Part shown: one piece after another, positions 426-37,189 of the stretch
How the letters are laid out: the number at the start of each line of letters is the position of its first letter
Numbering within the stretch: the stretch's first letter is position 1
DNA from: a virus
Virus record (IMG/VR): IMGVR_UViG_3300009161_000012
Location: 1-37,189 of that record
Reading direction: 5' to 3' (one strand)
DNA: 37,189 nt
Position numbers and translations under genes: made by a program
The notes under the pieces: model-generated
The model's input: the letters and a program-made list of their open reading frames with translations, nothing else
Database searches by the model: none
What the model was told of the DNA's origin: nothing

Positions 426-699
426 AGCGATAGGAGGTTCCTGTAATGTCGGTGATTGATTCAACTTGAATGTTTTTGCCGACAAGCTTATTGGTCATAC
501 GGCGCGGGATGGCAACATGGATGCATCCAAGGTCTTGCTCAATGGCAACGCAGTAAATCCACTGTGGATTGATTGCTTGCCTTAGCACCTTTGCCGCAAA
601 GACGTGCATACGCTTTGGTTCTTCTACGGCCTCCAACTCAACAGGTTGTGCCTCTTCAATGTCAACTGGAGCTTTGATTTTAAGTTTAGTTTTTTTCAT
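403..699 (-). CDS. Hypothetical protein coupled to the large terminase
   Basis: This 98-residue protein has its ATG overlapping the large terminase stop (TAATG at 697-701), a classic coupled arrangement. The first 30 residues are rich in Lys, Glu and Val and probably unstructured. The remainder (about 31-98) alternates hydrophobic and polar residues, as in a small beta-rich domain, with one internal Cys pair (C50, C59). No motif identifies it. The next gene overlaps its 3' end. It is transcribed with the packaging genes, so a head or packaging accessory role is possible but unproven. Confidence 0.65.
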   Translation of the reverse strand: MKKTKLKIKAPVDIEEAQPVELEAVEEPKRMHVFAAKVLRQAINPQWIYCVAIEQDLGCIHVAIPRRMTNKLVGKNIQVESITDITGTSYRYVQGQPH

Positions 700-2312
700 T
701 AGTAGCCGCCTTGTGATACAACCTTGGTTTTCATAGAATCTGGAGAAACATAATTAGCCCCGCTCACCGCCAAGTATCGTATCACATCTATTGGGTCTTT
801 CCAAGCTTCTTCTTGCCCGCCCTCTGCGGTGTATTCCTGCAATGCCGATATGATGTTTTGGCATCTATCCGAAATATAGAAATGCGGTCTATTGATTGAA
901 TCAATTGGCTTCTTCTTGTTGTAAGACATCTTGGTCTGCAACGCTTGAAGCCCATCCTCAATGTCAATGCCGGGAGCGGGAATGAACACAAGCCCAGCAT
1001 CCGATAGGTCTTCTATGATGGACGACGCGCCCTCTTGCGTCTGGTACTTGGCAGCACCTAGCCGTGGATCAATAAGCCGCTCAAAAATGGTGTCGTTGGT
1101 CTCGGACTCCATTCCGGTGATTAACTCAACATAGTCCTTGATGCCATAGCCTAGTCCCTTTGAAGCCTCTCCGCTTGACCACTTGCCGCCATGCCACTTA
1201 GCCCAATCACCTACGTTGCTGTCCGGCCACTCACGATAGACAAACCAAGTGTCGCTTTCGTCAATAGCCACCCAGCAAATGAACCAGTTTTTTCTGCCAG
1301 CAGGATCAAGAACCATATACTTGGTCTTGTTCTTCAGGTCAATCTTCTCATGGCGAATGACGTTCACCTCGCGGGAAAAATTGGGGAACTTTGTGGACAT
1401 TGACTTCGTTGCAATGCCATACGCACGGGTTAGAATCTCATTCTCCGGTCTACCAGCCAAGTCCTTTGAGATACGCTCATATCCTCCAAAGGGATTGTCT
1501 TTGCTGTGGAAGTAGATGATGCCAGCATCACGATTCTTAGACTTCTGCAAATATGGCACGGCACGTCCAGAAAGAAGCTCTGCCTCCTTAGAACGCAACG
1601 TCTCAGCCCCCTGCACATAGTCACGCACAACCTCCGTATAGCCATCAATCGGCGTGAACGTAACAACCAGCTTGCTATTGCGTGTAGCCAAGCGGAACCG
1701 TAGCGTAGCCAGAAGCTCAGGCCCAATCAAATACTCGTCGCACCACGCCCCAATGTTGAGCCATTTGGCATCGCGGCATCCCAACTCAGCACCTTCAAGG
1801 ATGGTATCGTTGTTTAAGAACTGGGCATAGGTCTTGAAGATGATTGAACTCTTGCTGTTAGGCAGGATGAGACTCGACTTGCTAAATCCGTTCTTCCGCG
1901 TGTAGGAGATGTTCTCTTCTGTGCCCAACACCTTCACCCTGTATTCCTCGGGCAAGGCATCATAGATTGCAGACTGCTGCTGGCGAATAGACACGTCAGC
2001 ATTCTGTGCAAAACACATGATGGTTGACTGGTGATTCTCAATGGCCGCTTTCACAATGGCATTGGCCGCAAAGCAAGTTTTTCCTGACCGATTTCCGCCA
2101 CTTACCAGAAGCTCAGAATGCTCTGCCATCAAATCCTCGGCATCCTTCCAATGCGGCAACTTCCAGCCATAGCGATAGTTATCTCGTTTGCTATTTGCAA
2201 TTGCCGAATGATAGAGGTCATGCAGCTTCAGCACATCCTCCGGGGACATGGAAGCCAGCTCCGCATCACTCGGCGGCTTCAACACTTCATGGTAGGACCA
2301 AAGCAAACTCAT
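699..2312 (-). CDS. terL: Terminase large subunit
   Basis: This 537-residue protein is the ATP-driven DNA packaging motor and headful nuclease that docks on the portal. Visible motifs are Walker A GGNRSGKT at residues 72-79, a Walker B-like hydrophobic strand ending WCDE at 190-193, and a coupling motif VVTFTPIDG at 216-224. The C-terminal RNase H-like nuclease has acidic candidates at D336 (MVLDPAG), D415 (LIDPRLG) and D506/D509 (KDPIDVIRYL). Length and domain order are normal for phage large terminases. Its start overlaps the small terminase stop by 4 bp (ATGA). The RNase H-type nuclease and absence of cos-related genes leave the packaging mode open. Confidence 0.95.
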   Translation of the reverse strand: MSLLWSYHEVLKPPSDAELASMSPEDVLKLHDLYHSAIANSKRDNYRYGWKLPHWKDAEDLMAEHSELLVSGGNRSGKTCFAANAIVKAAIENHQSTIMCFAQNADVSIRQQQSAIYDALPEEYRVKVLGTEENISYTRKNGFSKSSLILPNSKSSIIFKTYAQFLNNDTILEGAELGCRDAKWLNIGAWCDEYLIGPELLATLRFRLATRNSKLVVTFTPIDGYTEVVRDYVQGAETLRSKEAELLSGRAVPYLQKSKNRDAGIIYFHSKDNPFGGYERISKDLAGRPENEILTRAYGIATKSMSTKFPNFSREVNVIRHEKIDLKNKTKYMVLDPAGRKNWFICWVAIDESDTWFVYREWPDSNVGDWAKWHGGKWSSGEASKGLGYGIKDYVELITGMESETNDTIFERLIDPRLGAAKYQTQEGASSIIEDLSDAGLVFIPAPGIDIEDGLQALQTKMSYNKKKPIDSINRPHFYISDRCQNIISALQEYTAEGGQEEAWKDPIDVIRYLAVSGANYVSPDSMKTKVVSQGGY

Positions 2313-2889: not shown

Positions 2890-3163
2890 CACCTATCTCT
2901 ATGAACATAACTACATTACAACTATCTCAAATTAATCCACAACCTTTACACCCTTTCTCCCGTCCTTTACAGCAACTTACGTCGCAACTGTGTTGACGCG
3001 ACCTTTGTTTAATCCTCTATCCGCGTAAACTAGACCTTACGCCAAGGACAGCGGCTATGGCGAGTAGGGCCAAACATCTGTGATTTTTTTAAAATGGCTT
3101 ATGGATCAATTTCAATCTGTCCGCCCACCCCCCCTAACGTACCCCCTCCCCCCTATATAGCTA

Positions 3164-3262
3164 TATAGTATACTAAATTAGTATAGTATATAGTTGTATA
3201 GTATACTAAATCAATATAGTATATAACTGTATAGTATAGTAAAGTAGTATAGTATATTGCTA
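3164..3262. repeat. Three 33-bp AT-rich tandem repeats (iteron-like)
   Basis: Units start at 3164, 3197 and 3230, each beginning TATAGTATA and built from interleaved TATAC/GTATA and TAGTAT/ATACTA inverted repeats. Copies 1 and 2 are close matches; copy 3 is more diverged. The 33-bp period is about three helical turns, so bound proteins would sit on one face of the DNA. The composition suits a DNA-unwinding element, an initiator-binding array or a multi-copy operator. Position in the divergent region supports a control role. Confidence 0.8.
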
Positions 3263-3478
3263 TACTTAGCTAGGGCGTGTGCGTGGTGTGTTAAGGGGAG
3301 ATAAGGGATTGCCAACGCCGACAGACCGTCCTGACATTAGTCTTTCTTCACTCCCGTTTGCCGCCTATTAGGACGTCTAATGCCTTAAAATAAAGCTTTA
3401 AACCTTTGGTCAAATCTGGTAAACGTGTGGGCAGGGAAGCGACAAACGTAACCCACAACGAAAGAGACAAAGAAACAA

Positions 3479-4472: not shown

Positions 4473-4503
4473 AAGGCCACGCCTTCAATGGCGTGGCCTT
4501 TTT
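4473..4503 (+). terminator. Rho-independent terminator after the gp88-like operon
   Basis: An 11-bp perfect stem, AAGGCCACGCC (4473-4483) with GGCGTGGCCTT (4490-4500), has a 6-nt loop and is followed by a T run to 4503. It lies 19 bp after the stop of the membrane micropeptide. The flanking A run also allows some function on the minus strand. Confidence 0.8.
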
Positions 4504-4668
4504 CGTGGCCTTCGTTGGCCCTTCGTTGGCCTTTGCTTGGCCCGTCCTTCGCCCGTCCTTGGCCTTTCCTTGGCCCTTCGTGGCCCGTCCTTGGCCCTAG
4601 GCACCTTGCGCCATCCCTTGCGCCATCCCTTGCGCCATCTTTGGCCGCTACCTTGGCCGCCAATGGCG
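4504..4668. repeat. GGCC-rich low-complexity repeat block
   Basis: This stretch is built from short imperfect repeats of TTGGCC/CCTTCG-type words, with GGCC occurring roughly every 10-20 bp, and ends with three exact 12-bp tandem units CCTTGCGCCATC (4604-4639). Long frames are open on both strands, but they translate to low-complexity Gly/Arg/Lys or Trp/Pro/Leu repeats and have no coupled start, so I do not call genes. It directly follows a terminator and precedes the CTTAAG array, so it is more likely a structural or regulatory DNA element. Confidence 0.7.
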
Positions 4669-4676
4669 GAAACCCT

Positions 4677-4799
4677 CTTAAGGGGCTAATCCCGACAAAG
4701 CCCCTTAAGAGGCTAATCCAATACAATCGCCTTAAGAGAGGAATCCGCCTTAAGGGATGAATCCCCTTAAGAGATGAATTCCCTTAAGAGCGCAATCCC
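4677..4799. repeat. Six-copy CTTAAG iterated array upstream of the DUF932 operon
   Basis: CTTAAG occurs at 4677, 4704, 4731, 4749, 4766 and 4783, giving spacings of 27, 27, 18, 17 and 17 bp. Each palindrome is followed by a related tail of roughly RRGVNBAATCC, so the unit is a directional direct repeat of about 17-19 bp. A further copy, matching the last unit at 17 of 19 positions, lies at 6083-6101 after the DUF932 gene. The array sits just upstream of a promoter-like sequence. This is what a cooperative operator or initiator-binding array would look like. Confidence 0.75.
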
Positions 4800-5133: not shown

Positions 5134-6081
5134 ATGAGTCACGAAATCGAAATCAACGACACGGTTATCTACGGCAGCAACACACCCGCTTGGCACGGCC
5201 TCGGGACGGTGTTTGCTGGCCTTTTAAGCCCTTTGCGCGTCTTTGCTGAGGGAGTCGGTCACAGAGACATCCTTGAGGTTCCCGTGCACCTTAACGGGCT
5301 TGTCTTGCCAAACCAAAAGGGCTTGGTGGGGATCACGTCTAAGGGCGTGCAGGTGCCGCTTTCAGTGGTGGGCGAAGGTTATGGCGTGCTTAAAAGTGAA
5401 TCCATGTATCGCATCCTTGAGGGCGTCTACGCCGGGCAAGCGGTGGTAGATGCAGCCGGAACCCTTCGCAACGGTGCTCGCGAGTGGTGCCTAGTCAAAC
5501 GATCTGCATGGTCGGTCAAAAAAGACGACGTTGTTTTGACGTATGACCTCTGGCTTAATCGCCACGATGGAAGCGGGTGTTTTGAGCTTCACCGCACCAA
5601 CATTCGGGTGGTCTGCGCGAACACTTGGAAGATGGCCGTCTCTGGTGGCAATCGCGTGTTTGGGGTGCGTCACACGAAAAACGTGGAGCAGGGCGTGCAA
5701 TCGGCGTTGCAAGTGCTCGGATATGTCGAAGCGCAAGAGCAGACGCAGCGTGCAGCCGCGCAGCGTATGGCGACGGCTTTTATGAGCCGTGCAGAGGCCG
5801 CGACGGCGTTTAACGTGCTTCTTGGCATCCGGGAGGGCGTGGAGTCTTCCACCCGTGCAGAGAATCAGTCGGCGGAACTTAATCGCCTATTCCTCACTGG
5901 CGCGGGCAATCAAGGGCTGACGCGCTGGGACGCTTTTAACGCCGTCACCGAGTACGTTGATCACGGGCGTTCAACTCGCGTTGCGGATGGTCGCAGCGGG
6001 GCGGAAGTGCGGTTTGAGAGCGTGCTTATGGGTTCTGGCGATGCCATGAAGGCCAAGGCGTTTGACCTCCTGAGCGTGTAA
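5134..6081 (+). CDS. DUF932 family phage/plasmid-like protein
   Basis: This 315-residue protein matches the DUF932 (phage/plasmid-like TIGR03299) pattern: an N-terminal segment with PAWHGLGT (residues 18-25), a central VGEGYGVLK (78-86), then LTYDLWLNRHDGSG and TNIRVVCANTW around 133-165, and a helical C-terminal half. Length is normal for the family, whose molecular function is unknown; members sit in phage and plasmid early regions. Codon use is GC-richer than the flanking small genes. A strong terminator follows at 6098, so the gene ends its transcript. CTTAAG repeats flank the operon on both sides. Confidence 0.85.
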   Translation: MSHEIEINDTVIYGSNTPAWHGLGTVFAGLLSPLRVFAEGVGHRDILEVPVHLNGLVLPNQKGLVGITSKGVQVPLSVVGEGYGVLKSESMYRILEGVYAGQAVVDAAGTLRNGAREWCLVKRSAWSVKKDDVVLTYDLWLNRHDGSGCFELHRTNIRVVCANTWKMAVSGGNRVFGVRHTKNVEQGVQSALQVLGYVEAQEQTQRAAAQRMATAFMSRAEAATAFNVLLGIREGVESSTRAENQSAELNRLFLTGAGNQGLTRWDAFNAVTEYVDHGRSTRVADGRSGAEVRFESVLMGSGDAMKAKAFDLLSV

Positions 6082-6367: not shown

Positions 6368-6516
6368 AGGGAGCCGCAAAGGAGCGGAATGCGGCTTAAT
6401 CCGTCAATGGGGAATTTCCCCGCTTGCATAACTGAGCGTGTTATTATTCTTTCCTGTTAGTTGCGGGTAGAGCCGCCACAAAAGTTCAATTTGGGCTGGA
6501 AATTTCTGGCCGAAAA

Positions 6517-6562
6517 GAAGACCGGACGTGCTGCTCTACCAGCCTCCGGTCTTCTGCTTTTT
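6517..6562 (+). terminator. Terminator-like hairpin
   Basis: GAAGACCGGA (6517-6526) is perfectly inverted as TCCGGTCTTC (6545-6554). The 18-nt interior can itself form a small GCTG/CAGC hairpin. Five T residues follow at 6558-6562. No known plus-strand gene ends just upstream, so it may end a noncoding transcript or form part of a larger RNA. Confidence 0.6.
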
Positions 6563-6597
6563 CTTAGTTCTCGCGAAGACTGGAGTTCATAGGAACT

Positions 6598-6836
6598 GAG
6601 CGTGTAACCCACAGCATCCGCATATGGCGGTCTGATATTGGGTGAAGGTGCGGTCCCCGAGGCTAACAGGCGAGAGCCTGAATCGTAGGGGTATCAAAGT
6701 GACGCGAAAGCGTGATTCACCGACAGGCTACGAGAAACAGCCAAGGGTAGGAGGCACAAGCCGCAACCCGAGGTCGGAAAAGCGAACGCGAAAACTGCTT
6801 TATGCGCTGCTTAACAATCCCTGATGGCAGGGATTT
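6598..6836 (+). ncRNA. Candidate structured noncoding RNA, unidentified
   Basis: Successive complementary pairs suggest an ordered fold. ACCCA/TGGGT (6607-6611/6639-6643) encloses CCGC/GCGG (6618-6621/6627-6630). CCCC/GGGG (6655-6658/6688-6691) encloses CAGGC-GAGA-GCCTG (6667-6680). ACGC-GAAA-GCGT lies at 6702-6713, inside GTGA/TCAC. GGCT/AGCC pairs 6726-6729/6739-6742. GGGT/ACCC (6745-6748/6766-6769) encloses GGC/GCC. The last hairpin is AATCCCTG-ATGG-CAGGGATT (6816-6835). Two loops are GNRA tetraloops. Short stretches (GAAACAGCC, GGAAAAGCGAA) resemble group II intron domain I, but there is no intron ORF and no domain V that I can see. Strand is inferred from neighbouring genes. Confidence 0.5.
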
Positions 6837-6966
6837 CTGCGTCCACTCGCCTACTTTATGCGACTACTCAACGCATCCATCCGCAATGGATCGAAAAATC
6901 CCTTAATCACGAAGTGAAAACCACTAAAAACTAAGGCCAATGAGAGAAAACTGATTGCCGCAAATA

Positions 6967-6993
6967 GCCTTAAGGGAGGGATTTACTTAAGGC
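6967..6993. promoter_or_regulatory. Perfect inverted repeat containing two CTTAAG sites
   Basis: GCCTTAAG (6967-6974) and CTTAAGGC (6986-6993) form a perfect 8-bp inverted repeat with an 11-nt spacer, 78 bp upstream of the gene at 7071. The CTTAAG core is the same as in the array at 4677-4799. It may be an operator for the downstream small-gene operon or a leader hairpin. Confidence 0.5.
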
Positions 6994-7070
6994 CGCAAAA
7001 AAAGTTGAAGAAAAGATTTGATGCACGCCAAGAAATCTGAATGATGGCGGCAGATAGGTAGAACAACAAC

Positions 7071-7346
7071 ATGAAAAATATGAATACAAAATTAGAAGAC
7101 ATCAACATCGTTCCCGATTTCGGGAAGATTAATCCCCTCACGGAGAACGAAGCTAAATGTCACCTTTATGGAATGGCGGCAATTGCGGCGAGTTTGGCGT
7201 TTGAGCTATACATAAAACAAAAGTATTACCAAAAGCCAGAAGGAATCCACGAATCGGGTTACACCGAAAACCTATTGAAAAGGTTTGCGGATGCCGCGAA
7301 AGAAGTAGGCCGTCTCTGTGTAGCTAATGAGGGCGAAGTCAAATGA
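7071..7346 (+). CDS. Hypothetical small protein, first gene of the accessory operon
   Basis: This 91-residue protein begins MKNMNTKLED after an AACAACAAC leader with no SD. It has a predicted helical middle (about 29-50, Ala/Leu-rich, MAAIAASLAFELYIKQKYY) and a second charged helix (about 67-88). It is not hydrophobic enough for a confident membrane span. The stop overlaps the next start (ATGA at 7343-7346), placing it in a tightly coupled operon of small genes. Function unknown. Confidence 0.7.
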   Translation: MKNMNTKLEDINIVPDFGKINPLTENEAKCHLYGMAAIAASLAFELYIKQKYYQKPEGIHESGYTENLLKRFADAAKEVGRLCVANEGEVK

Positions 7347-14001: not shown

Positions 14002-14359
14002 TTTAGGGCGCCATCCATCAAGGATGGAAAGCGGTCATGCAACAGTTGATAAACTGGAGCGCAGACTAAGCCACCCTATTCACTTCCCTCCTGTGCTGAA
14101 TGCGGGTTCACCCGAGTAAGCAGAAATGCTTCTAGGCGCAGGCGGGTTTAAGCGGGGGATCGTCCAATTGAGGATTTCGTGCATTCATACGAAGATGTAG
14201 GCAACCCCTACTCCCTCGCACCACTTTCATCATCCCGCAGGGACGTATCTAGCGATGGTCACGACCATCGTTGTGAGCGAGCAAACCCTGCCTTCTGCGA
14301 AAGAATTGTTTCGTGGGGTGATGCCTATTTTGTTACTAAACAACACCACATAAAATCAA
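14002..14359 (+). ncRNA. Candidate structured noncoding RNA, unidentified
   Basis: The 358 bp after the helicase hold no supported gene but many hairpins: CCATCC/GGATGG (14011-14027), CAGTT/AACTG (14043-14056), CGGG-TTCA-CCCG (14103-14114), AAGCA-GAAA-TGCTT (14118-14131), TTCGT/ACGAA (14176-14193), GTAGG/CCTAC (14197-14211), TCCC-GCA-GGGA (14233-14243), CGATGGT-CACG-ACCATCG (14253-14270) and CGAAA/TTTCG (14298-14313). CTCGC/GCGAG (14215-14219/14277-14281) encloses two of them, and AGGG/CCCT (about 14005/14073) may close the 5' part. This density argues for a folded RNA on the early transcript. I do not recognise it as tRNA, tmRNA or RNase P RNA. A 65-codon frame at 14179-14376 is probably spurious. 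Confidence 0.55.
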
Positions 14360-14530
14360 ATGAAACCAAATCGTAAACTTGAAGAGCTTGAAGAATCCTT
14401 GATGGAAGATTTCGTGCAGGACATTGGCGGAAGCCAAGACCCTGTTGACCAATTCAAAGCCATTGAACGCTACGCCAAATTCGTAGAGGCCCGATCTGTA
14501 CGGATTAAAGCCGAACGTGTGGAGGCTTAA
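14360..14530 (+). CDS. Small acidic hypothetical protein
   Basis: This 56-residue protein (MKPNRKLEELEESLMEDF onward) begins after an A-rich leader at the 3' edge of the structured noncoding region. It is almost entirely helical and charged, with QDPVDQFKAIERYAKFVEAR as a likely helix-turn-helix-like hairpin of helices without clear DNA-binding signature. Its stop lies 2 bp before the GTG of the next gene, supporting cotranslation. No family is recognised. Confidence 0.55.
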   Translation: MKPNRKLEELEESLMEDFVQDIGGSQDPVDQFKAIERYAKFVEARSVRIKAERVEA

Positions 14531-14532
14531 CC

Positions 14533-14787
14533 GTGGTAACCAACGCGGGTGGACTTAGATTCCACGTTGAATCCTCAAACAAGGAAGAGGGCGCGTTTTA
14601 TAATGTTGAGTTCAAGGACCAGAACGGGGAATGCAGTTGCAGAGACTTCGTTGTGCGCTGCAAACCCCTCTACCGTGAACGCAAGAGTGTTGTAGAATAT
14701 GGAAATCCTGAAAGAACACGATGCAAACATATAAACCAAGTGCTTCTTTTCGTTGCAAATAAAGCCATTATTGGATGTATTAAATGA
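14533..14787 (+). CDS. SWIM-type zinc-finger-like small protein
   Basis: This 84-residue protein uses a GTG start at 14533, 2 bp after the previous stop. A beta-rich first half is followed by CSCRDF (C34, C36), then C44, and RCKHINQV (C64, H66), matching the CxC...CxH pattern of SWIM zinc fingers with an insert between the pairs. SWIM domains bind DNA or protein. The protein is short and stands alone, as in several phage genomes. It overlaps the next start by ATGA. The zinc-site reading is from spacing only. Confidence 0.65.
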   Translation: MVTNAGGLRFHVESSNKEEGAFYNVEFKDQNGECSCRDFVVRCKPLYRERKSVVEYGNPERTRCKHINQVLLFVANKAIIGCIK

Positions 14788-28850: not shown

Positions 28851-28945
28851 AAGTGATCGTATTTTATGCTTTATTGCCCGATTATGGGGTTAATGACTAT
28901 TTCGCTATCTATTAGGAGGCCCATTAAACACCCATTCCTTGCGTT

Positions 28946-29116
28946 TTAAGACACTTTATCCGCGAACTCGACCACTTTGTCGTCTTTTGGTTCTTTTGGC
29001 TGAATTTCGGCTAGAATCTGTTCCGCGCACTTCTTGAGCAAATCATGCTCGTCGGCGGTTAGGCCAGCACGACGGCTGGCGTTATAGAGGTTGTTTAGAG
29101 CTTGAATTGTAGGCAT
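28946..29116 (-). CDS. Small helical hypothetical protein
   Basis: This 56-residue protein (MPTIQALNNLYNASRRAGL onward) is predicted helical, with Ala/Leu/Glu heptads and a charged Lys/Glu/Asp tail (KEPKDDKVVEF). It resembles short conserved phage proteins near lysis genes, but I cannot assign a role. It starts 67 bp after the stop of the small membrane gene upstream. Frame quality and codon use are consistent with a real gene. Confidence 0.55.
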   Translation of the reverse strand: MPTIQALNNLYNASRRAGLTADEHDLLKKCAEQILAEIQPKEPKDDKVVEFADKVS

Positions 29117-29183
29117 CCGAGAAATGGTTAATCTGTAAATTAAGAAGTCAACTGTTAAGAATCCAAATTCAGACTAAATTAGT

Positions 29184-29330
29184 CTACTTTTTATTAAACA
29201 AATCAAATAGACTCTTGGCCTTCTCCTCTAAAACTGACACCCGTAAATCTAGTTTGCTTAGTACAATTATTAGCGTAATCATACCCAGAAAAATAGGCCA
29301 ACCTTTAACAAGGATTTCAATTGCATCCAT
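29184..29330 (-). CDS. Single-span membrane protein with short coiled-coil tail
   Basis: This 48-residue protein (MDAIEILVKGWPIFLGM onward) has one membrane helix (about 10-25) followed by a polar helix with heptad spacing (KLDLRVSVLEEKAKSLFDLF). This topology is common among small lysis-cluster proteins such as spanin-like or holin accessory proteins. It begins 1 bp after the stop of the tiny gene upstream. Likely real; function inferred only from topology and neighbours. Confidence 0.6.
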   Translation of the reverse strand: MDAIEILVKGWPIFLGMITLIIVLSKLDLRVSVLEEKAKSLFDLFNKK

Positions 29331-29331
29331 G

Positions 29332-29409
29332 TTAAAGGCTACCGGACGCAAGGGTTAGCACTAACCCAAGCGCAAGCACCCCAAGAAACAATGAGCGTTG
29401 TAGGCTCAC
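29332..29409 (-). CDS. Possible 25-residue membrane micropeptide
   Basis: A GTG at 29407-29409 opens a 25-codon frame (about 6-23 hydrophobic: LFLGVLALGLVLTLAS) ending 1 bp before the next ATG, and it begins 4 bp after the stop of the gene at 29414. The tight packing on both sides is the main support. There is no lipobox Cys. It may be a signal-peptide-like membrane peptide, or a chance frame. Confidence 0.35.
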   Translation of the reverse strand: MSLQRSLFLGVLALGLVLTLASGSL

Positions 29410-29413
29410 TAAA

Positions 29414-32598: not shown

Positions 32599-33573
32599 TT
32601 AGGTGACAGCGAGAATCTTGCCGTGGGCAAGAGGACTGAATACCTGAAGACCAGCAGCAGCGTCAACAAACCCGCGCTGACCGCCACCTTGATCGGGAAC
32701 GCGAGTCGAGCCAAGGCTCATCAACTCAGCAACGCCGAGATAGTCGGGGTTGATGATGTAGCCACGGGAAGCATCTGGCAAGCACGCTGGATTGCCATTG
32801 ATAACCGTGATGATACCAAAGTCGCTGTCATAGGTGTTCACCGAGAGGGTGATTTCCCTGTCAGTCGCCATTTGGTTTACATGATAGACGTTCTCGGCGC
32901 TGTTGCCGTCAGAACGAGCAAACCCGCTCACCGTGCGCCGAAGGGTCGTGCCAGCAACAAGCGAGAGTTTATCCACCGTACCCGTTTGGGTGAAGATAGA
33001 CGAAATCAATCCGTTGAACAGATTCTCCGTAAACGTGCCGCTAACGTGAATGGATGCCGTAGGAGTGCGGAATGCGCTTGGAACGTCAGAACCCGGAGTG
33101 TTAGAGGTCCAGAGACCCAAACCACGGCTGACATAACGGGCAGAACTACCGTCTTCAACCGAGCGGTCTTGATCGCCGCAAAGCACCTTTTCCATATCGC
33201 GCTTGATTTCGCGGACTCCTTTTGCTTCAGCCTCGGCAAGTTTAGCCGGACCAACCGACTCAACAGCCTGTTGAAGCTGGCTCACCATAAAGTCACGGCG
33301 AAACAGTTGGATGTAATTGCCGAGACGAGCGCGGCCAGTGAACTTGTCAGTGAAGGAGGAAATATCCGCGCCTTCCTGAATACCAGTAGCCGATGGCGTA
33401 GCGAGCGTGTCCACAGTCCACTCATTGAAGGTGGCAGTAGCCTTGCTTTTGTTAGCCAACGAGAGAACGGGAGTCTCCTCGGGAGCCAGAATAGTCAGAA
33501 CGTCCGTGAGGTCTTCGCGATTGGAGACCCCAGAGCCGGGATTAGTAACATTATAAGTATTAGAAAAAGCCAT
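32599..33573 (-). CDS. Major capsid protein (SU10/DUF5309-like HK97 fold)
   Basis: This 324-residue protein has the layout of phage HK97-fold capsid proteins of the SU10-like group: an N-terminal arm, then LAPEETPVLSLANKSKA (about 29-45), FNEWTVDTL (49-57), a long helix with RRDFMVSQLQQAVESVG (about 91-107) and KGVREIKRDMEKVLCGD (about 117-133), and a beta-rich second half. It has one of the usual lengths for this group. It is preceded by the scaffold gene and followed by a terminator, as expected for the most abundant virion protein. No SD is seen. Confidence 0.85.
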   Translation of the reverse strand: MAFSNTYNVTNPGSGVSNREDLTDVLTILAPEETPVLSLANKSKATATFNEWTVDTLATPSATGIQEGADISSFTDKFTGRARLGNYIQLFRRDFMVSQLQQAVESVGPAKLAEAEAKGVREIKRDMEKVLCGDQDRSVEDGSSARYVSRGLGLWTSNTPGSDVPSAFRTPTASIHVSGTFTENLFNGLISSIFTQTGTVDKLSLVAGTTLRRTVSGFARSDGNSAENVYHVNQMATDREITLSVNTYDSDFGIITVINGNPACLPDASRGYIINPDYLGVAELMSLGSTRVPDQGGGQRGFVDAAAGLQVFSPLAHGKILAVT

Positions 33574-35032: not shown

Positions 35033-35171
35033 ACAACCCGCAGCTCCCCCTCAAACTCCCCCTTTCTTTGGCGGTTCTTTTGATTTTGCGTAGCAACTAC
35101 TCCCGCTTTAAATTAGGATCGAATAAGATTTATAAACGAAGTGTAACCACTGGAAACTTAGGCCACTGAGC

Positions 35172-37189
35172 CTACTGAACATTCTGAGTGTTCATTTGCC
35201 CCATTTGCGCTGGAGCTGTTCCAATGCGACCAATCTGAGCATTCTGCATCTGAGTGAGTGCAAATTGGTACTGCTGAGCATATTTCTCTAGGCGACCACG
35301 GAATGTCTCATCTTGTTGCAACCGTTGAGCAACATCGGGCTGTGCAACATATTGCTGAATCACTTGCAAGGCAACCTGAGCACCATTAGGACGTGCAGGC
35401 ATCTCAATGCCAGCGAAAATCTTAGCCAAATCGTCAGTGACCATTTTAACAACTTGTTGCGATGCTTGCTCTGCTGGCTGCAAAACGGCGTCAGCCATGA
35501 TTGGGTCAATAGACGCAGCCATGTGCTCAAGCAAACTGTCGGTGTTAATACGGCCATTCTTGTCCAATTGAAGCAACTGAACAAATTGAGCTAGTCGCGC
35601 CTCATGCGTGTCTGGATCATTGTTCAAGACATCAAAGCTAATCTTGATATCAAAGTCCTCATCTGGATTACCCTTATCAAATTGCATTGGATCAGCAACT
35701 CCCGTTACGCGGAAGAACACTTGATCGGGGCCAAATCGCTGATAGCACTTGAACGCCATCTTGATGACATCCTGAGTGTGCGATAGAAACTTGTTTACAA
35801 AATACTGCTGGCGAATCGAAGACAGGGGGTCGGCAACGTCAAGTCCGACAATCTTATCCGCCGCACTAATCATTGTGCGCTCCATCTCAATTGAGCCGGG
35901 ATTGTAGGGTGGCGTAGGGCCAAAGCTAATCTCGCCCGCACGACGAATCGGGATGTATCTGCCGGGGCCATAGTCCGTGGGCGCATTGCCGGGAGGATGG
36001 AGAATTGGCGGCAGAGTCGCCAAACTGTTGCGATCCGTCCGGCTGTCACGCTCTGCCTTCACTTGATCCTGCGGCCCGCGAAGAAGGTCGGAGAACGTCT
36101 CAACGTCATACATCCGCTTGGAGCTGTTGCTAAGGCGTGTGACAACGAAGGGATAGTCGTTGTACCCGTTCAGAAGCTCAAACTTAGCATAGCCCTTTAC
36201 GTCACTGGCACCAGAGAACTTGGGGTGAAAAACCGTGCAGTAGATTCCCTCGGAGCCGTCCTCATCATCAATGAGACGCTGGAACGAGTAGACAACCTCA
36301 ATGAGTTCACTGGCGTTGTATTGCTGCCGAGTGCGATTACTGGTACTGCCGCGACTTCCGTACACGCCATCCAGATTGTAGGTGTTTACGCCCCGATATT
36401 TGGAGCAGATGTATTCCGCCCAAGACTCGTCCCATCCGCTTGAGGTGACGCGGGACAACACTTCCTGAACCGATAGAAATGTGCGATAGAAAACATACGG
36501 GGCGCGCTGTGGGTCAATGCAATAGGACGGGAAGAACACGTCTCCGTCAGGAGCACAGCTTTGCAAGAACGGACGATCAACCGACATACGCGTTACGGGA
36601 ATCTCACTGACGCCATTATTGCGAAGCTCTTTCAACGCCTTCTTTGCGCGTTTGTCTACTAGATTGGGGTAGACCGACTTGAACATCTCGATGATTTCAT
36701 CGTCATTCTTGCCGTCGATAATGAGCCTAGCCAAATCCGGCGAGTTGGTTGCAATTTGATTCAGATCAATCTTCTGAAGATACTTCTTCTCTGTGCGCTC
36801 CCAGCCGATGTAGGTAATCATCAGCCCACGCTCTAGGAAGTAGTTTGCCCCAAGCTCCATCTCCTCTTTGAAGCGAGGAATGTAAGAGGCCACCATCCAC
36901 TTCAAGAATGCGCTAACTACCCGTGCCCTACCGGCGTCAGAATGCTCAATAGGATAGGCACGGATGTTTGCACGCGAAAGCGATGCCGTAAACAAAGATA
37001 CATAGCTATTAATCCGCTCATCAATAATGCGTGCCTCAGTGTCAGACGCACCCTCCCAAGGGAAGGCGTCAGCCCCATGCTTACGCATATCAATAGACTT
37101 ACCCGGCCAACTGCAACGACGATTATCCCCACTGCTAATGCATTGGCTAAAATAGGTAGAAAGCTCAGTGAGCGTCTTATCATACGCTC
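35172..37189 (-). CDS. Portal protein, main part (5' end completes at positions 1-196)
   Basis: The portal is the dodecameric ring at one capsid vertex through which DNA is packaged and ejected. The full protein is about 696 residues once the piece at 1-196 is joined. Visible features include a helical first half with a helical stem pattern (MELGANYFLERGLMITYIGW), a mid region with FGPTPPYNPGSIEMERTM leading to ADKIVGLDVADP, then QYFVNKFLSHTQDVIKM, and a C-terminal Gln-rich low-complexity tail (AQIGRIGTAPAQMGQMNTQ). The length suits podovirus-type portals. It follows the terminase genes in the circular order and precedes the scaffold. Confidence 0.85.
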   Translation of the reverse strand, partial: AYDKTLTELSTYFSQCISSGDNRRCSWPGKSIDMRKHGADAFPWEGASDTEARIIDERINSYVSLFTASLSRANIRAYPIEHSDAGRARVVSAFLKWMVASYIPRFKEEMELGANYFLERGLMITYIGWERTEKKYLQKIDLNQIATNSPDLARLIIDGKNDDEIIEMFKSVYPNLVDKRAKKALKELRNNGVSEIPVTRMSVDRPFLQSCAPDGDVFFPSYCIDPQRAPYVFYRTFLSVQEVLSRVTSSGWDESWAEYICSKYRGVNTYNLDGVYGSRGSTSNRTRQQYNASELIEVVYSFQRLIDDEDGSEGIYCTVFHPKFSGASDVKGYAKFELLNGYNDYPFVVTRLSNSSKRMYDVETFSDLLRGPQDQVKAERDSRTDRNSLATLPPILHPPGNAPTDYGPGRYIPIRRAGEISFGPTPPYNPGSIEMERTMISAADKIVGLDVADPLSSIRQQYFVNKFLSHTQDVIKMAFKCYQRFGPDQVFFRVTGVADPMQFDKGNPDEDFDIKISFDVLNNDPDTHEARLAQFVQLLQLDKNGRINTDSLLEHMAASIDPIMADAVLQPAEQASQQVVKMVTDDLAKIFAGIEMPARPNGAQVALQVIQQYVAQPDVAQRLQQDETFRGRLEKYAQQYQFALTQMQNAQIGRIGTAPAQMGQMNTQNVQ
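37067..37189. repeat. Terminal direct repeat, right copy
   Basis: Identical to positions 1-123. It encodes codons of the portal protein upstream of the Met at 37088; the frame runs on into the left end. Confidence 0.95.

Follow-up and report, generated by a model that had tools for sequence, protein, structure and literature searches.

A candidate modular structured RNA with kissing hairpins in front of the early genes of related uncultured phages

The genome and the conserved noncoding locus

The window, by which we mean the whole stretch of DNA analysed, is a virus record 37189 bases long, with a perfect direct repeat of 123 bases at its two ends (1-123 and 37067-37189). Because the ends are identical over this length, the record very likely represents the full map of a circular genome of ~37066 bp. 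In addition to terminase and major head protein genes it encodes a DnaB-like helicase, an Erf-like protein and an exonuclease, and no tRNA gene was found in it. A simple gene picker left a gap of 703 bases (6368-7070) without an ORF, and within that gap lies a conserved noncoding locus of ~610 nt (about 6454-7066), flanked by a DUF932 gene on one side and the first small early genes on the other. Two more long ORF-free stretches were left by the same gene picker at 14002-14783 and 28851-29413. The features discussed below are the following:

699-2312, minus strand: terminase gene
5134-6081: DUF932 gene, the upstream neighbour of the noncoding locus
6439-6447, plus strand: extended -10 promoter-like element TG-T-TATTAT (TGTTATTAT), read from the sequence
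6463-6476, plus strand: hairpin 1, GCGG-(GUAGAG)-CCGC, with loop 6467-6472 as kissing partner 1
6516-6555, plus strand: hairpin 2, whose 11-bp stem includes an inner GCTG/CAGC stem, with CUCUAC (6534-6539) as its apical loop
6562-6866, plus strand: central module (class 1), with a closing helix (6647-6654/6836-6844), hairpins and a three-way element (6720-6777)
6867-7066, plus strand: 3' tail module, conserved and reaching up to the first early gene
7071-7346, plus strand: first early gene 3' of the RNA (91 aa), separated from it by a short gap
32599-33573, minus strand: major head protein gene

A search with the DUF932 protein returned 23 viral loci, of which three close ones (L002, L003 and L005) keep the noncoding locus; a fourth relative (L027) was found through a DNA pattern. 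The locus is therefore common to five phages, the window and four relatives, and the region 6424-7070 is kept entirely or almost so in all four. (A predicted structure of the DUF932 protein itself, with a mean pLDDT of 57.8, was set aside.) In local alignments the central module is 97.7% identical to the window in L003, 92.8% in L002, 89.5% in L005 and 94.7% in L027, while identity at fourfold-degenerate sites of the DUF932 gene is 55.9% for L003, 59.6% for L002 and 46.2% for L005. By this measure the constraint on the RNA locus is much stronger than that on synonymous sites of the neighbouring gene, and constraint of this degree on noncoding DNA argues strongly for function. The 3' tail is 83-94.5% identical (local alignments) in five relatives, including one, L140, whose centre differs.

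The sequence-only reading that preceded this work had singled out positions 6598-6836 as a second structured RNA candidate. That stretch is the middle of the locus, which begins ~145 bases upstream and ends ~230 bases downstream of it, and it is better viewed as a module within one longer RNA.

Several repeated elements were noted in the same genome. The tail segment 6888-6944 has a diverged second copy at 35116-35170 (plus strand), which adjoins the end of a late gene on the opposite strand (35172) and is antisense to the late operon; a similarly antisense copy is present in L043/L141, L077/L138 and L139. This second copy could pair with late mRNA or represent a shared protein site. AT-rich and 11-bp tandem-like repeats occur at 3154-3264 and 4500-4596, and CTTAAGRGATGAATCC-type repeats, at 4729-4788 and 6967-6991, resemble CTTAAAGGNCGAATCC repeats located 5' of the RNA in L006 and L007. 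The CTTAAGRGATGAATCC and CTTAAAGGNCGAATCC repeats are perhaps iterons or operator sites.

The kissing hairpins and the central fold

In the minimum-energy fold of the window sequence, the hexaloops of the two 5' hairpins (GUAGAG and CUCUAC) are perfectly complementary, and the 5' module as a whole folds with a z score of -4.64 (0 of 200 shuffles were as stable). Hairpin 2 is followed in the window by GCTTTTTCTT and can be described as terminator-like, because a T-rich stretch lies 3' of it in most of the RNAs examined; it is absent from the sites returned by a terminator scan that accepts loops of 3-8 only.

All 32 RNAs examined have loops that complement each other over 6-8 nt (21 distinct loop pairs, 16 words). 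This set was picked from loci where the RNA had been recognised beforehand, with hairpin patterns written after inspection, and it leaves out L098, which has no recognisable kissing pair. When RNAs with different words were compared, a cross match of at least 6 nt was found in 5 of 398 combinations, and none of 2000 partner permutations reached the observed 21/21 loop-pair matches. A MAFFT alignment of the 5' module puts the loops out of register, and the counts were made from the hairpin patterns. A kissing finder with fixed general criteria, run over both strands of the collected loci (2.63 Mb), gave 17 distinct hits at the RNA and five elsewhere, and resampled sequence gave six hits in 1.13 Mb. 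The two hairpins are 22-48 nt apart among the RNAs. Across these comparisons their loops are fully complementary and change together.

Folding of the 6598-6836 region as a single sequence is only mildly unusual (z -1.66, with 12 of 200 shuffles folding at least as well). Since the window sequence's own folding energy is unremarkable, the case for the centre rests on comparison. RNAalifold, applied to the five class 1 sequences, gave 81 pairs in 13 helices; eight of these pairs were changed on both sides and still paired. Overall, 98.5% of cells are paired (95.9 +/- 0.5 in shuffles), 13 cells show double changes (4.6 in shuffles) and the covariation score is 0.109 (0.054 in shuffles); for each of these three measures 0 of 500 shuffles were as high. 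Pairing falls to 29-44% when the partners are slid by 1-3 columns. A further measure, of 'further pair types', showed no excess over shuffles (498 of 500 were as high), and four pairs depart from the model by unpaired cells. Within the limits of five related sequences, these results identify the class 1 centre as a folded RNA, and they bear out the structured RNA of the sequence-only reading, with compensatory changes in its stems among related phages. As judged from such changes, the shape of the RNA is what evolution has preserved. Searched against 36 sources, a covariance model built on the class 1 core found only its five members, plus one 10-bit match attributable to chance.

The individual elements named earlier for this region fared unevenly. 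The stems CAGGC-GAGA-GCCTG (6667-6680) and ACGC-GAAA-GCGT (6702-6713) are present, as are the longer pairings GGGT/ACCC (6745-6748/6766-6769), ACCCA/TGGGT (6607-6611/6639-6643) and CCCC/GGGG (6655-6658/6688-6691). Of the two proposed GNRA hairpins, the GAAA loop is kept in 5/5 phages; the GAGA loop is not, being replaced in 3/5 (CAGGC-AAAGA-GCCTG). The hairpin at 6816-6835 is likewise invariant in 5/5, but its T tail varies (TTTCTG in 2/5, TTACTG in 3/5), and it is therefore not a conserved terminator.

Two coding interpretations of the region were also discarded. The open frame at 6642-6824 is broken by a 1-nt insertion in 3/5 phages and matches no Pfam or PHROG family; it is not the conserved protein that would have spoken against the sequence-only reading. 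A tag-like reading ending in ALCAA near 6790-6815 suggested a tmRNA; ARAGORN finds none in the window, and L005 has an extra base there. On this evidence the RNA encodes no conserved protein.

Module classes among relatives and the setting of the RNA

A terminase search returned 358 viral relatives, of which 80 were used. Several of them carry, at the same genomic place, a 5' module of the same kind joined to a different centre (class 2), and further class 2 contigs were collected by a pattern search. In an alignment of 19 class 2 sequences, both sides have changed in 24 of the 61 pairs, with 117 doubly changed cells and 96.2% of cells paired; on each of the five measures, 0 of 500 shuffles were as high. 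The class 1 and class 2 centres look alike in layout, each with a closing helix, hairpins and a branched element; the class 1 covariance model misses class 2, a result that lends no support to common descent of the two. In class 3 (L084, L092, L095, L096, L099 and L100) the 5' module stands alone, with a gene directly behind it.

L140 is a mosaic. Relative to the window its 5' module is 94% identical over 107 nt, with the same loop word, and its tail is 83% identical over 200 nt, while its centre gave no match to the window at E 1e-3. At the level of these alignments, the middle module is exchangeable between phages, with the 5' module and 3' tail staying in place. L140 also has a 27-nt motif (92.6%) in common with the locus of L107, L108, L115 and L116. 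These four phages and L111 carry a further conserved noncoding locus, termed class 4, which has a terminator-like hairpin and in which no kissing pair was recognised; its centre shows little covariation (three covarying pairs, with a positive covariation term), too weak to make the class 4 fold more than a candidate.

A DNA-pattern scan gave 14 stretches, four of which were the known RNA; the other ten, without similarity and mostly in coding-looking DNA, were taken as chance. The bacterial genome collection yielded no terminase relative and no class 2 RNA pattern, and blastn against annotated phages and plasmids gave no match. Phage C75C1, the only annotated phage covered full-length in the terminase search (44%), gave only a chance-like hit with the kissing finder.

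In classes 1-3 the RNA sits in front of the early genes, in the same place and orientation, and no conserved terminator separates it from the first early gene; the simplest view is therefore that it forms the early transcript's leader. The extended -10 element just upstream is a putative promoter, from which we infer that transcription would be expected to start near 6454. The element is kept at this place in L005 and L140, as TGTTATCAT and TGCTATCAT, and a simple sigma-70 scan found no promoter site at the locus. The gene that follows the RNA differs between groups, with several unrelated ones represented, in a comparison where the five class 1 loci, L007 and L121 had no anchor and where L106 and L123 yielded no ORF row. 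Because of these differences, the RNA is unlikely to be a regulator of one particular gene.

Identity and possible roles of the RNA

At gathering score, no Rfam family (and thus no riboswitch) matches the window, and ten relatives gave one tRNA only. With E values up to 10, all matches were far below their gathering scores, and the weak snoRNA and sRNA scores appear to be chance; the scan with group II intron, riboswitch and sRNA models that had been proposed earlier thus turned up nothing relevant at the locus. A covariance model of GOLLD (RF02032) put 0/8 records above a cut-off of 150 bits, with a 9.7-bit fragment in the L006 record. That of ROOL (RF03087) also matched 0/8 records, a result that is weak alone because control genomes gave no signal either; ROOL is likewise absent from the Rfam scans of the window and ten relatives. 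Full-text literature searches of partial coverage returned no description of this locus. The earlier heading of 'riboregulator or new phage RNA' is still the right one.

GOLLD and ROOL are large folded phage RNAs of unknown function, and phi29 pRNA has complementary hairpin loops that vary together. To our knowledge, a modular build of this kind has not been described for large structured phage RNAs, nor do we know of an ornate RNA following HK022 put. We consider the present RNA to be a large structured phage RNA in which the modular build is what is new. It is similar to GOLLD and ROOL in being a large, elaborately folded phage noncoding RNA with kissing loops, which the cages formed by those RNAs employ (PMC12286853); it differs in its shared 5' kissing module, exchangeable centre, location at the head of an early operon and the absence of a tRNA gene in the window. 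HK022 put consists of two hairpins directly 3' of a phage early promoter, within roughly the opening 100 nt of the early RNA (PMC9378689), and its RNA causes polymerase to read past terminators. The hairpin pair described here would occupy an equivalent position behind its putative early promoter; put, in contrast, is ~70 nt, and PMC9378689 makes no mention of kissing loops. From phi29 pRNA (RNA dimers are the subject of PMC7357161) the present RNA differs in having no known packaging link and a pair that can close intramolecularly, and in being larger and modular. IsrK of Gifsy-1, a prophage RNA that is reported to have two isoforms (PMC4825925), was compared with it by layout only.

The explanation we favor, at a probability of roughly 0.4, is that a modular structured noncoding RNA of ~0.6 kb heads the phage early transcript, with the kissing pair acting in cis and the centre as cargo. 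Transcription from the extended -10 promoter would yield the RNA as the early operon's leader, the kissing pair would close on the nascent RNA beside the terminator-like hairpin, and the closed pair would then act in cis on early transcription or RNA stability. The middle module would be a separate RNA 'cargo' working through its own fold. That class 3 has the kissing pair alone is consistent with an independent function of the pair. A swapped centre of 300-380 nt is not explained by a simple antitermination leader, and this counts against our explanation.

A rather doubtful alternative is that the RNA is released from the transcript and acts as a stand-alone ornate RNA in the style of GOLLD and ROOL, self-oligomerising via its kissing loops, such that loop variation would let each phage's RNA recognise only its own kind. 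Its large size, elaborate covarying fold, phage location and lack of a known protein partner would suit such a role, as would the rarity of cross-pairing between different loop words (5/398) and the use of kissing loops by the GOLLD and ROOL cages (PMC12286853). Hexaloops that are complementary throughout can pair either inside one molecule or across two; with hairpins only 22-48 nt apart, however, intramolecular pairing is possible, class 3 has the pair without the ornate part, and neither GOLLD nor ROOL was matched in sequence or structure. We consider it unlikely that the RNA acts early in trans (as a decoy, antisense or immunity RNA) against the host or competing phages and has diversified in an arms race. 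The first-transcribed position, the clean module exchange in L140, the 16 loop words, the varying downstream first gene and the diverged tail copy antisense to the late operon (35116-35170) all point in that direction, but no target has been identified, the loops are already perfectly partnered in cis, and the centre is conserved rather than diverse within class 1.

The location of the RNA directly upstream of a gene would also suit a riboswitch or translational leader specific to the first early gene. We regard this as very improbable, given that the first genes come from several unrelated groups, that the class 2 RNA precedes unrelated genes and that no Rfam riboswitch was found at the locus. 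Least credible is the ORF-less group II intron, or degenerate remnant of one, raised by the sequence-only reading from its GNRA loops and two short motifs. The domain V and D1D4 models gave no match here while their controls were positive, the genome has no reverse transcriptase (RVT_1), no gene is interrupted, and other folds occupy the same place in relatives; we have rejected this identity.

The locus adds a modular case, found among many related uncultured phages, to the large structured phage RNAs. Its natural loop variants and natural module swap make the roles of the kissing loops and of the central fold separable in tests, and its ready-made compensatory variants can be used for structure work. 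A broader proposal, which we advance as an improbable one, is that these phages possess a new modular RNA system in which a hypervariable, self-complementary pair of loops labels the leader RNA of each phage as belonging to it, and a conserved frame of 5' module and tail carries exchangeable folded cargo that is the first to be delivered during infection. If this is true, the cargo RNA would serve early transcription control, host takeover or the exclusion of competing phages.
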